Shown: positions 5,251 through 64,000 of the stretch, piece by piece
Position numbering within the stretch: position 1 is the stretch's first letter
Layout: each line of letters starts with the position of its first letter
Origin: Allomuricauda sp.
GTDB lineage: Bacteria; Bacteroidota; Bacteroidia; Flavobacteriales; Flavobacteriaceae
DNA: 64,000 nt
Direction: 5' to 3'
Assembly: GCF_002699205.1 (NCBI RefSeq)
Contig: NZ_PABT01000032.1
Span: 1 to 64,000, forward strand
Translations under genes and position numbers: made by a program
Notes under the pieces: generated by a model
The model's input: the letters and a program-made list of their open reading frames with translations, nothing else
Database searches by the model: none
What the model was told of the DNA's origin: nothing

Positions 5251-5835
5251 ATGGAACAACTACAGATTAAAGACTCGATTTTAGTAAAGAACTACATTAA
5301 CGGAGACGAAAAGGCTCTAGAAACACTGATCAACAGGCACAACCAAAGAATTACCAGCTTTATTTACAGCAAAGTTTTGGACAGAGATGTGGCAGAGGAC
5401 ATCTTCCAGGATACTTTCATTAAGGTGATCAAGACCTTAAAAAGAGGTTCTTATAGCGAAGAAGGTAAATTTTTACCTTGGGTAATGCGAATTGCACACA
5501 ATCTGGTCATAGACCATTTCCGCAAGAACAAAAGAATGCCCAAGTTTGAGGGGAGTGATGACTTTAACATCTTTTCAGTTATCAAGGACGATAAATTGAA
5601 TATCGAAAAGCAAATCATCAAAGATCAAATCGAAAGTGACCTAACACAGTTGATCGATGAATTGCCAGATGATCAAAAAGAAGTGTTGATCATGCGTATC
5701 TACAAGGATATGAGCTTTAAGGAGATATCCGAAAACACTGATGTAAGTATAAATACAGCTTTGGGGAGAATGCGATATGCGTTGATAAACCTCAGAAAAA
5801 TAGTGGAACGGAAAAACATCGTTTTAACGAATTAA
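5251..5835 (+). CDS. RNA polymerase sigma-70 family factor, ECF-like
   Basis: The 194-residue protein has the two sigma domains of the ECF group. Region 2 is roughly residues 25-95, with the DVAEDIFQDTFIKV helix and the -10 recognition part FLPWVMRIAHNLVIDHFRK. Region 4 is roughly residues 130-185, with the helix-turn-helix MSFKEISENTDVSINTALG. It lacks region 3 and the long region 1 of primary sigma factors. No anti-sigma factor with a membrane segment lies next to it, which is unusual for ECF genes; instead a 47-residue ORF follows. Control may be through the leader inverted repeat. The regulon cannot be deduced from sequence. Confidence 0.92.
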   Translation: MEQLQIKDSILVKNYINGDEKALETLINRHNQRITSFIYSKVLDRDVAEDIFQDTFIKVIKTLKRGSYSEEGKFLPWVMRIAHNLVIDHFRKNKRMPKFEGSDDFNIFSVIKDDKLNIEKQIIKDQIESDLTQLIDELPDDQKEVLIMRIYKDMSFKEISENTDVSINTALGRMRYALINLRKIVERKNIVLTN

Positions 5836-6806: not shown

Positions 6807-7259
6807 ATGAATATGTTAAAAGTAGGGGATAAAGTACCTGATTTTTCGGCAAAAGACCAAGACGGGAACACAATTAATCTGAGTGATTACAAGGGAAAAA
6901 AACTGGTGGTCTTTTTCTATCCGAAAGCCAGTACACCGGGTTGTACGGCCGAGGCCTGTAATCTAAGGGATAATTACAAGGAACTACAGGCCCAGGGCTA
7001 CGAACTTTTGGGCGTAAGTGCCGATTCTCAAAAAAGACAGCACAATTTCAAAACTAAATATGAATTCCCGTTTCCATTATTGGCCGATGAGGATCATACA
7101 GTAATCAACACCTTTGGTGTCTGGGGGCCTAAAAAATTTATGGGCAGGGAGTATGATGGAATCCATCGGACCACTTTTGTGATCAATGGAGATGGCATTG
7201 TTGAAAATGTCATTGAAAAGGTAAAGACCAAAGACCATGCAGCACAGATATTGGCATAA
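6807..7259 (+). CDS. bcp: Thioredoxin-dependent thiol peroxidase (BCP-type peroxiredoxin)
   Basis: This cytoplasmic enzyme reduces hydrogen peroxide and organic hydroperoxides using thioredoxin. The 150-residue sequence has the AhpC/TSA fold with the signature TPGCTAEACNLRD. The first Cys (about 48) is peroxidatic, and the second five residues later is the resolving Cys typical of alpha-type BCP. The RTTFVINGDG strand near the C-terminus also fits. Translation may start at the ATG at 6807 or at the one two codons later (MLKVGDKVPDF). It stands alone, with its own promoter and a REP-like repeat behind it. Confidence 0.96.
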   Translation: MNMLKVGDKVPDFSAKDQDGNTINLSDYKGKKLVVFFYPKASTPGCTAEACNLRDNYKELQAQGYELLGVSADSQKRQHNFKTKYEFPFPLLADEDHTVINTFGVWGPKKFMGREYDGIHRTTFVINGDGIVENVIEKVKTKDHAAQILA

Positions 7260-7294
7260 ACAGTAAAAAGGCGGTCTAAAAAGTATTGAAATAC

Positions 7295-7374
7295 GTCATT
7301 CTGAACTTGTTTCAGAACCCCATTATATTGATAAACAAAGTATTATGAGAACCTGAAACAAGTTCAGGTTGACA
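7295..7374. repeat. REP-like inverted repeat element
   Basis: gtcattCTGAACTTGTTTCAG (arm core 7301-7315) faces an exact inverted copy CTGAAACAAGTTCAG at 7353-7367. The flanks also partly match (gtcatt/gttgac and aacc on the inner side). The spacer is 37 AT-rich bases. It lies between two converging genes, the usual place for repetitive extragenic palindromes. Only one copy is in this window. It might also end transcription of one or both genes, although there is no T run. Confidence 0.65.
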
Positions 7375-7403
7375 AAAACCGATTTTTTAGATAGCCTCTT
7401 TTA

Positions 7404-8855
7404 CTATTCTTTTTCTTCAAGGACCTTTCTCGTGAACAGGTTCTTTTCTTTTATAATTTCTGCAATACCTTCGGGCAGTTCATTTTCCCACCCATCCTCT
7501 TTGTTTATGATTTTCTTGAGCACATCCCGTGAGAAAATATGGAGCACATCTGGGTCATAATCAATAATATCCATCACTTTTCCGTTGTACTTGAAGAATT
7601 TGTACAGTTCCTTCATTCTCGGATGTACCTTTACATTATTGCTGGTAAGTACTTGTCCGGTTTCTGGATCTTTCATGGGGTAGAGATACACCTTTAGGTC
7701 TTTAAAGAACAATTTTCCAAAGGCCTCCAAGATACCACCGCTTAGGTGGCGATAATATTTTTCATCAAATACATCTATCAGGTTATTGACCCCCATGGTC
7801 AATCCGATCTTGGCCTTGGTATAGTTATTAAAGTACTCAACCAATCTGTAATACTCTTGGAATTTGGATATCAATACCGTATGTCCGAGCGAACATAACA
7901 GTTCGGCTCGATCCATAAAGTCCTGTTCGTCGATCTCTCCGGAAGCCTTAAGGTTGGAAAGGGTTATCTCGAAAACGACAATGGCGTTTTCCACATCCAC
8001 CGTTTGCTCCCTAATGAAAATATCGTACGATTTTTGGAACATATCCATGTTCACCTTGGTAACGGGCCTAAAGCTACCGCGCAGTGCCAAGATATTTTTC
8101 TTGTACAGGACAGCCGCAGGAAGCAGGTTGTGTCCGTCAGGGCCAAACATTACCGCATCGGTCATGTCGTTTTTAATGAGCTGAAGGCTCATCAAACGAT
8201 TGTCAACATTCTCAAAATTGGGTCCCGTAAAATTGATCATATCAATTTCCAAGGTGTCGTGGTCAATATGATCGTACAGATATTTTAAAAGTTTTCTAGG
8301 TTTATGGAACTTAAAAAATGCGCCATAAATTAAGTTCACCCCCAAAATCCCCAAGGTTTCTTGCTGTAACCTCGCTTCATTTTGTTTAAAACGGATATGA
8401 AGTACAATTTCATCGTATTCCTTTTGGTCCGGATCCAATTGAAAACGAAGACCTACCCATCCGTGTCCTTTGTAACGTTTGGAAAAATCAATGGTTGCCA
8501 CGGTATTCGCATAAGTAAAAAAGAGATAGTTGGGGTTGTTCTTCCTACTTATCCGCTCCTCGACCAAACGCATTTCGTGGTCCAACATCTTTTTTAAACG
8601 AGACTGTGTCACGTAGCGACCATCTTCCTCAACACCATATATGGCATCACTAAAAGATTTGTCGTACGCACTCATTGCCTTTGCTATGGTGCCAGAAGCC
8701 CCACCAGCCCTGAAAAAGTGTCTGGCAGTCTCTTGTCCTGCACCAATCTCGGCAAAGGTTCCATAAATATCTTGGTTCAAATTTATCCTAAGGGTTTTCG
8801 CCTTTATGGAAGGAATGTTTTCGAAGGCATTTTCTTTGCTTGGTATGCTTGGCAT
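7404..8855 (-). CDS. Conserved protein of unknown function (about 480 residues)
   Basis: I recognise this as a large conserved family in Bacteroidota that is annotated inconsistently in databases. I do not know its activity. The N-terminal part contains GTFAEIGAGQETARHFFRAG and GTIAKAMSAYDK, the best conserved stretch. There is no signal peptide or membrane segment, so it should be cytoplasmic. The ORF track begins at a TTG (8879), but that codon lies inside a perfect -7 box (8877-8884). The first ATG after the expected transcription start is 8855 (MPSIPSKENAF), giving 483 residues. It diverges from the MBL hydrolase gene, sharing a compact intergenic region. Confidence 0.85.
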   Translation of the reverse strand: MPSIPSKENAFENIPSIKAKTLRINLNQDIYGTFAEIGAGQETARHFFRAGGASGTIAKAMSAYDKSFSDAIYGVEEDGRYVTQSRLKKMLDHEMRLVEERISRKNNPNYLFFTYANTVATIDFSKRYKGHGWVGLRFQLDPDQKEYDEIVLHIRFKQNEARLQQETLGILGVNLIYGAFFKFHKPRKLLKYLYDHIDHDTLEIDMINFTGPNFENVDNRLMSLQLIKNDMTDAVMFGPDGHNLLPAAVLYKKNILALRGSFRPVTKVNMDMFQKSYDIFIREQTVDVENAIVVFEITLSNLKASGEIDEQDFMDRAELLCSLGHTVLISKFQEYYRLVEYFNNYTKAKIGLTMGVNNLIDVFDEKYYRHLSGGILEAFGKLFFKDLKVYLYPMKDPETGQVLTSNNVKVHPRMKELYKFFKYNGKVMDIIDYDPDVLHIFSRDVLKKIINKEDGWENELPEGIAEIIKEKNLFTRKVLEEKE

Positions 8856-62600: not shown

Positions 62601-63416
62601 ATGGATAAATTACCAAAGATTGCGTTGCCCGCATTGGCAGCGGTTATTTTTTTAATCATCATCATCTCAAAATCAGCTATAACCATAGGTTCGGGTGAAG
62701 CAGGTGTGCTTTACAAAACCTTTGGTGGGGGCGTGGTTACCGATGAACCCCCATTGGGAGAGGGCTTTCATTTGGTCGCACCGTGGAACAAGGTATATGT
62801 TTATGAAGTTCGTCAGCAAGAAAAACTGGAACAAATGAACGTACTATCTTCTAACGGTCTGGACATTAAATTGGAAGCATCAGTTTGGTTCCAACCTTCA
62901 TATAATGAACTTGGCAAACTGCATCAGGAAAAAAGTGAACAGTATATAGATCGCGTTTTGCTTCCCGCCATTCGTTCTGCGGCCCGTAGCGTAGTTGGAA
63001 GATATACTCCGGAACAATTGTATTCGAGTAAACGGGATGCCATCCAACAAGAAATTTTCGAGGAAACCCAAAAAATCGTGGAAGACCAATACATCCAATT
63101 GAACGAAGTTTTGGTGAGGGATGTAACCTTGCCACCCACGATCAAGGACGCCATCGAACGTAAACTAAAACAGGAGCAAGAGTCTTTGGAATACGAATTT
63201 AGATTGGTAACGGCCCAAAAGGAAGCCGAAAAAGTTCGTATTGAAGCGCAAGGTAAAGCAGATGCCAACCGAATACTCAGTGCTTCATTGACAGATAAAA
63301 TATTGCAGGACAAGGGTATAGATGCGACAATAAAGCTTTCAGAATCACCAAACACCAAAGTGATCGTGGTAGGGTCAGGTGATAGTGGACTGCCATTAAT
63401 TTTAGGAAATAACTAA
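62601..63416 (+). CDS. Prohibitin-family SPFH membrane protein
   Basis: The 271-residue protein has an N-terminal membrane helix (IALPALAAVIFLIIIIS), an SPFH/band-7 domain (about 25-200, AGVLYKTFGGGV through VRDVTLPPTIKDAI) and a C-terminal coiled coil rich in Glu, Lys and Arg (KQEQESLEYEFRLVTAQKEAEKVRIEAQGKAD). It should form large ring-like scaffolds in the inner membrane, often with the FtsH protease. Located 12 bases after the vWA gene and likely cotranscribed. Confidence 0.93.
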   Translation: MDKLPKIALPALAAVIFLIIIISKSAITIGSGEAGVLYKTFGGGVVTDEPPLGEGFHLVAPWNKVYVYEVRQQEKLEQMNVLSSNGLDIKLEASVWFQPSYNELGKLHQEKSEQYIDRVLLPAIRSAARSVVGRYTPEQLYSSKRDAIQQEIFEETQKIVEDQYIQLNEVLVRDVTLPPTIKDAIERKLKQEQESLEYEFRLVTAQKEAEKVRIEAQGKADANRILSASLTDKILQDKGIDATIKLSESPNTKVIVVGSGDSGLPLILGNN

Positions 63417-63426
63417 ATTTCCCTTT

Positions 63427-63454
63427 TTTGATATAAAAATATATTCTACTTTTG
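63427..63454 (+). promoter_or_regulatory. Promoter of the his operon
   Basis: TTTG at 63427-63430, 16 bases, then TACTTTTG at 63447-63454: a full Bacteroidota -33/-7 pair. Transcription would start near 63461, just ahead of the leader peptide ATG. Confidence 0.7.
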
Positions 63455-63461
63455 GGGTGTT

Positions 63462-63515
63462 ATGAGAAACAGAAACACACATCATCATTTTTATACTTGC
63501 CCTCAAGCGAGATAG
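63462..63515 (+). CDS. hisL: his operon leader peptide
   Basis: This 17-residue ORF encodes MRNRNTHHHFYTCPQAR, with three His codons in a row (CAT CAT CAT, 63480-63488). It lies right after the promoter and ahead of a terminator and hisG. This is the classic design of a histidine attenuator. When charged His-tRNA is scarce, the ribosome stalls on the His codons and leaves 63502-63511 free to pair with the left arm of the terminator. When it is plentiful, the ribosome reaches the stop, covers that segment and the terminator forms. Confidence 0.85.
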   Translation: MRNRNTHHHFYTCPQAR

Positions 63516-63557
63516 AAATGTATTGTTGTTTTTAAAATATATTCTAACCCGTTTGAG
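63502..63557 (+). promoter_or_regulatory. Anti-terminator pairing in the his leader
   Basis: CTCAAGCGAG (63502-63511, end of the leader peptide ORF) can pair with CCCGTTTGAG (63548-63557, left terminator arm). There are eight Watson-Crick pairs, one G-U and one mismatch in ten positions. The pairing is exclusive with the terminator. A ribosome at the leader stop codon would cover the first arm. Confidence 0.65.
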
Positions 63558-63579
63558 AAATCAAACGGGTTTATTTTTT
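63546..63579 (+). terminator. his attenuator terminator
   Basis: AACCCGTTTGA-gaaa-TCAAACGGGTT is a perfect 11-bp stem with a GAAA loop, followed by tattttttg. It lies 30 bases after the leader peptide stop and 35 bases before the hisG ATG. No other gene upstream needs a terminator here except the prohibitin gene, so it most likely works as the attenuator. Confidence 0.88.
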
Positions 63580-63614
63580 GCACCCATTTGGTTTTTCAAA
63601 CAAAAAATTGAAAA

Positions 63615-64000
63615 ATGACAAAAATTAGGATTGCCGTTCAGAAAAGTGGCCGTTTAAACGAGGATTCCCTCAAAATTTTAAAAGATTGCGGTATTTCCAT
63701 CGACAATGGAAAAGACCAGCTAAAAGCGACTTCCCATAATTTTCCCTTGGAAGTCTTTTATTTGAGAAACGGGGATATTCCGCAATACCTTCGTGATGGG
63801 GTTGTTGATATTGCCATTATCGGGGAAAATGTATTGATCGAAAAAGGAAAGGATATTTCCATTGCGGAACGATTGGGTTTTTCCAAATGCCGTGTATCCC
63901 TTGCAGTACCAAAAAATGTGACCTACAATTCCATCAAAGATTTTGAGGGTAAAAAAATAGCTACTTCCTACCCAAATACGGTCAAGGAATATTTGGAGTC
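63615..64000 (+). CDS. hisG: ATP phosphoribosyltransferase (partial, 3' end outside the window)
   Basis: HisG catalyses the first step of histidine synthesis, joining ATP and PRPP, and is normally feedback-inhibited by histidine. The 128 visible residues start MTKIRIAVQKSGRLNEDSLKIL and continue with VVDIAIIGENVLIEKG, GFSKCRVSLAVP and KKIATSYPNTVKEYL, fitting the long-form enzyme. It is the first gene behind the attenuator, and the his operon continues past the window edge. Confidence 0.95.
   Translation, partial: MTKIRIAVQKSGRLNEDSLKILKDCGISIDNGKDQLKATSHNFPLEVFYLRNGDIPQYLRDGVVDIAIIGENVLIEKGKDISIAERLGFSKCRVSLAVPKNVTYNSIKDFEGKKIATSYPNTVKEYLE

Follow-up and report, generated by a model that had tools for sequence, protein, structure and literature searches.

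The stretch of DNA analysed here (the window, 64,000 nucleotides from Allomuricauda sp.) closes with the beginning of hisG, and the short region in front of this gene raises the question of whether a member of the Bacteroidota governs its his operon by ribosome-controlled attenuation, a form of regulation best known from enteric bacteria. A preliminary description had placed in this region a complete histidine attenuator, made up of a promoter, a leader ORF with His codons, a terminator and an alternative pairing. The parts that it named and the logic that it proposed are supported by the present analysis, although it missed two elements, namely a protector hairpin (P1) and a strand downstream of the terminator. 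Judged from sequence comparison, the region very probably controls the his operon by ribosome-mediated transcription attenuation that follows the textbook logic.

The assignment of the DNA to the Bacteroidota is borne out by the nearest named relatives of the host, Flagellimonas/Allomuricauda of the family Flavobacteriaceae. All features described below lie on the forward strand. The hisG gene (ATP phosphoribosyltransferase, TIGR00070) occupies 63615-64000, extends to 64472 on the contig and is followed by further his genes past the window end. The his operon of the host is interrupted by genes for a GNAT acetyltransferase, a 23S rRNA-intervening-sequence-type protein and a DUF1572/DinB-like protein, in the same order at contig positions 64482-64922, 68426-68779 and 70139-70654 (= L239:1483-1923, 5427-5780 and 7140-7655).

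Promoter, leader ORF and alternative helices

A promoter-like motif is present in front of the leader ORF, as had been claimed. The predicted sigmaA-type promoter (63428-63454) consists of TTG at 63428-63430 and a -7 box, TACTTTTG, at 63447-63454 that matches TAnnTTTG, the Bacteroidota consensus, which the main text of PMC9723704 places at -12 to -5. A scan with the sigma-70 consensus returned no promoter on the forward strand, including none at the -7 box, as is expected for this phylum. Because of the position given for the box in that text, the transcript is predicted to start near 63459, with a 5'UTR of about 3 nt before the leader ORF. Box and ATG are separated by 7-8 nt at most host-genus loci and by 17-19 nt in another group of genera, so the predicted 5'UTR is 3-4 nt in the former versus roughly 13-15 nt in the latter, and the leader mRNA of the host genus would be nearly leaderless; for comparison, 87% of predicted transcripts in F. 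johnsoniae have leaders >10 nt. A 24-nt sequence just before the terminator (63523-63546) repeats the promoter region 63425-63448 with 83% identity (TTGTTGTTTTTAAAATATATTCTA), which may be a chance product of AT-rich sequence.

The leader ORF (63462-63515; MRNRNTHHHFYTCPQAR), read directly, has 17 codons and ends in a TAG stop at 63513-63515. Its three tandem His codons, CAT CAT CAT at 63480-63488, form the predicted stall site, and the ORF corresponds exactly to the 17-residue leader with three consecutive His codons reported earlier. Overlapping its 3' portion is P1 (63486-63520), in which the third His codon together with the six bases after it (63486-63494) pairs with the stop-codon region at 63512-63520, and 63496-63500 (CTTGC) pair with 63507-63511 (GCGAG) of strand 2. 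P1 folds at -11.7 kcal/mol (z -6.1).

Strand 2 (CTCAAGCGAG, 63502-63511), the 5' strand of the antiterminator, overlaps the last leader codons. Its alternative partner is CCCGTTTGAG at 63548-63557, within strand 3 (63546-63557), which serves both as the left arm of the terminator and as the 3' strand of the antiterminator. The ten-position pairing proposed between the end of the leader ORF and this arm resolves into nine pairs, one of them G-U, and one A·C mismatch. The fold and a matched-versus-swapped test point to further pairs, between 63513-63524 and 63536-63546, that would extend the antiterminator. The intrinsic terminator (63546-63579) comprises an 11-bp stem of AACCCGTTTGA (63546-63556) and TCAAACGGGTT (63561-63571, strand 4) around a GAAA loop, followed by the U tract TATTTTTTG (63572-63579); the 11-bp hairpin with a T run described earlier is confirmed at this position and is conserved in relatives. 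Both states of the leader were folded, as had been suggested: the antiterminator region reaches -17.6 with strand 4 not yet made, and the terminator -16.2 kcal/mol (z -6.1) with strand 2 masked, values that agree with the proposed switching. Compared with dinucleotide shuffles, the folds of the terminator, the antiterminator region and P1 each lie about 6 sd lower, none of 200 shuffles being as good.

P1, 2:3 and 3:4 are, by sequence and covariation, three mutually exclusive helices. When charged tRNA-His is low, the ribosome would stall at 63480-63488 and cover the 5' strand of P1, which begins at the last His codon; the freed strand 2 would capture strand 3 while strand 4 is still to be transcribed, and RNA polymerase would read into hisG. 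When histidine is ample, the ribosome would run on to the stop codon, 1 nt beyond strand 2, and mask that strand, whereupon strands 3 and 4 would pair and transcription would end near 63575. If the leader is untranslated, P1 would hide strand 2 and the operon would be off as well.

Conservation among relatives

Regions upstream of hisG were sampled from 120 genomes of the host family, from 82 loci of other Bacteroidia families and from 36 loci of Bacteroidota outside the Bacteroidia, all reached by a single route, via hisG. Under a strict criterion, which asked for a His run in a short ORF beginning with ATG at most 300 nt upstream of hisG, a leader was found in 113/120, 63/82 and 17/36 loci, respectively, with shuffled controls giving 0.3, 0.3 and 0.15 and the opposite strand 1, 0 and 0. 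By the same criterion the His run was absent from 19 of the 82 loci of other Bacteroidia families and from about half of the other-class loci. The leader ORF is thus conserved in the family, the class and beyond. Leader peptides vary widely among families (e.g. HHHHHVISTMRGRFMF, HNHHHSLAQASR and HHHHENNSGQ), and because they otherwise diverge, the His run is what is kept. The run is short in Flavobacteriaceae leaders, at 3-4 His codons. Elsewhere in the phylum, in classes other than Bacteroidia, ORFs before hisG hold up to ~10 His codons (e.g. HHAHHGHHHIHVQ), and nearly all of these loci (L151-L153, L157, L165-L167, L171, L175-L176, L235) are without a recognisable intrinsic terminator; these terminator-poor His leaders possibly use a different termination or a translational mode.

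In about 190 Flavobacteriaceae, alignment of the hisG upstream regions, a check that the preliminary description had proposed, showed the His run, antiterminator and terminator to be positionally conserved. A terminator between leader ORF and hisG was found automatically in 116 of 119 loci and by eye in the remaining three, and across 41 aligned sequences 100% of its cells were paired. P1 was predicted in 188/193 relatives, with swap z values of -11.2 (species swap) and -5.8 and two-sided changes at 6 pairs; taken together, P1 and the terminator had 93.2% of cells paired and 10 pairs with two-sided changes, which 0/500 shuffles matched. The conserved A of GCGAG, mispaired in 2:3, is accounted for by P1 since P1 pairs it, and P1 is probably also behind the conserved Thr-Cys/Gly codons of the leader.

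The antiterminator had at least nine of ten positions paired in 121/193 loci. Strands 2 and 3 were more complementary within their own genome than across swapped genomes, at z -7.4 in the family and z -6.8 in other Bacteroidia families, where terminator sequences are quite different (e.g. AAGGCTTACC with GGTAAG); the extension gave z -8.1 in other genera and -3.0 in the host genus. In one relative (L068), strands 2, 3 and 4 are altered together. Only one 2:3 pair shows a two-sided change within the family, a weak covariation signal that follows from the helix being so conserved, and a few relatives carry mid-helix mismatches (L116, L375: CTCTTGCG). In 176/193 Flavobacteriaceae loci, strand 2 is separated from the stop codon by exactly 1 nt, the placement required for ribosome masking, in agreement with the geometry suggested earlier, whereby a completed peptide covers the antiterminator arm. 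Since the His run and both pairings are kept in relatives, the lack of conservation that would count against an attenuator was not what we found.

The hairpin could in principle be merely the terminator of the upstream gene at 62601-63416, with the His ORF an accident, as that gene runs in the same direction and ends 46 nt before the ORF. A promoter-like box nevertheless lies in between, and the His run, P1 and the antiterminator are conserved and covary over many families; this conservation effectively refutes the upstream-gene reading, to which we give almost no credence. The attenuator, by comparison, has its characteristic features in place: an ORF with tandem His codons, a terminator, an exclusive antiterminator near the stop codon and a protector hairpin. 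Predicted leader-peptide control of the classical type is kept before hisG across most Bacteroidia, a class in which the regulation of amino-acid synthesis is little studied. These bacteria do not use Shine-Dalgarno sequences, and such control implies transcription-translation coupling at their hisG leader.

A fifth strand before hisG

Strand 5 (TTTTTCAAAC, 63592-63601), whose 3' end lies 13 nt ahead of the hisG start codon, is complementary to 63551-63560, which comprise the terminator loop and the adjoining end of the left arm. In 68 of 128 loci from other genera, 11 or more of 13 positions were paired, against 4.1 loci in shuffles, and matched sequences surpassed swapped ones at z -12.2 (z -8.9 after removal of duplicates). 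For the covariation test each position was left out of the choice of site. At position 8 of the strand 5-loop pairing, CG occurred in 27 loci, TA in 23, AT in 21 and TG in 10, so that 81/98 were paired where independence would give 45.9; positions 9-12 were likewise above expectation. As a shuffle test that ignores the tree was not trusted alone, tree-independent pairs from the HisG tree were added, in which concordant changes stood at 5.7 vs 0.2 pairs for C/G and 4.3 vs 0.1 for A/T, with concordance in nearly all informative pairs and few supported pairs. MAFFT-based counts went in the same direction (14 cells with two-sided change, 0/500 shuffles). In the host genus strand 5 gave z -1.0; the loop hardly varies there, and the genus hence offers no test of covariation.

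Strand 5 occurs in families f1, f2, f20, f21, f23 and f37 and is absent from more distant families, from some lineages and from the trp and phe leaders of the genus; by these comparisons it is a Flavobacteriales feature. It mostly lies 12-15 nt before the hisG ATG, and in about ten loci at 30-66 nt. Seven loci (L012, L062, L067, L092, L101, L108, L117) have an insert between strand 5 and hisG that puts strand 5 ~45 nt from the ATG; the insert bears a hairpin in several relatives, such as GATACCTGCATTCGCAGGAA in L012. A separate hairpin over the hisG start (63592-63599 with 63608-63615), seen in the window and its nearest relatives, was set aside, as strand 5 of other genera lends it no support.

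In the read-through mRNA, strand 5 would be a third possible partner of strand 3. Since it is made only after the choice between termination and read-through, it cannot affect that choice, and a role as a termination aid was rejected. A role solely in a loop-loop pseudoknot was also rejected, since the stem part covaries too (position 3). The likeliest role, which we advance as a hypothesis, is a second, translational gate added to the transcriptional attenuator: when strand 2 is unavailable, strand 5 would invade the terminator from its loop and pair with the left arm and loop, and the resulting ~12-bp helix, located at about -13 to -26 relative to hisG, would lower translation of read-through mRNA; under starvation, strand 3 would be held by strand 2, leaving strand 5 and the start region free. 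This role is favoured because the covarying site mostly falls 12-15 nt before the ATG, within the interval from -20 to +20 in which initiation in F. johnsoniae is sensitive to structure (PMC6847099). It is held at the level of a hypothesis because in 108/116 loci strand 3 is predicted to pair within the terminator hairpin, 3:4 being predicted stronger than 3:5; the loci with the site 30-66 nt from the ATG, the lineages and the trp and phe leaders that do without strand 5, and the z of -1.0 in the host genus also weigh against it, and we regard such a dual-level attenuator as possible but rather doubtful. The same complementarity would allow strand 5 to act as a target in trans, for the terminated leader RNA of roughly 115 nt in histidine-rich cells, with the terminator loop as a possible seed; cis pairing would take place at a much higher local concentration and nothing in the data favours trans, which makes this improbable. 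Trans-acting products of the trp leader are known in Sinorhizobium, as are attenuator-derived small RNAs of rhizobia. A related paper (PMC7298713) concerns the trp-leader peptide. Tentatively, the his attenuators of Flavobacteriales could be five-strand switches in which the fifth strand controls hisG translation, either in cis or via the released leader RNA; if so, one stalled ribosome would govern both transcription and translation of the his operon.

Relation to known leaders

Rfam RF00514 (His_leader) had no match in 62800-64000 at E values up to 10 and none at gathering score among 12 diverse relatives, and T-box covariance models had no match in that region or in the 12 relatives. Matches to the Rfam Phe_leader, RprA and trpB motif models were below gathering score and were dismissed as chance. 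Other candidate leader peptides were seen in the host genome (L241, L255, L264) and in genus relatives (L240-L279), before trp (MINRRVNIWWWNNLRQTS), phe (MTNTYFWTRFYFYFFFQRGAGLL) and ilvD (MKQNNTVIVEVIIVPISG) genes; a thr leader, ..SIFTIVTTTPLG, precedes aspartokinase in the genus and was not seen in the host genome. Terminators were found for the trp, phe and most ilv leaders of the genus and none for thr.

How well such control is documented in the phylum had been left open by the preliminary description. A transcriptome study of F. psychrophilum from 2021 (PMC9723704) already points, in its main text, to clues that amino-acid operons are subject to leader-peptide attenuation, and to a 5' structured element that is conserved before hisG in Flavobacteriaceae genera and matches no Rfam family; this element concerns the same family and the same gene as the one described here. 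The core of the present attenuator is of a known kind because that text had already reported both. It contains no analysis of a hisG His run, helices or covariation, and makes no mention of P1 or strand 5. A comparative survey of 2010 by Lopatovskaya et al., as cited in PMC4833913, may already include Bacteroidetes. We found no description of the class-wide spread, the protector hairpin or strand 5 in the literature outside most subscription journals.

His-leader attenuators are also reported from some Firmicutes lineages (PMC9413887), as are hisS leaders (PMC2965389). Likened by description and not by sequence, the Firmicutes His leaders resemble the present one in having three to five consecutive His codons and alternative hairpins before his genes; they occur in a few scattered lineages, whereas the leader described here spans most Bacteroidia. 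The best-known counterpart is the enteric his attenuator, of the Kolter and Yanofsky type. Both stand in front of hisG and share tandem His codons, a strand 2 lying where the leader ORF ends, and protector, antiterminator and terminator helices that compete for common strands. The two have no sequence relation (RF00514), and the attenuator of this locus differs in its 3-4 His codons, a strand 2 that abuts the stop codon, a predicted 5'UTR of 3-4 nt and the presence of strand 5.
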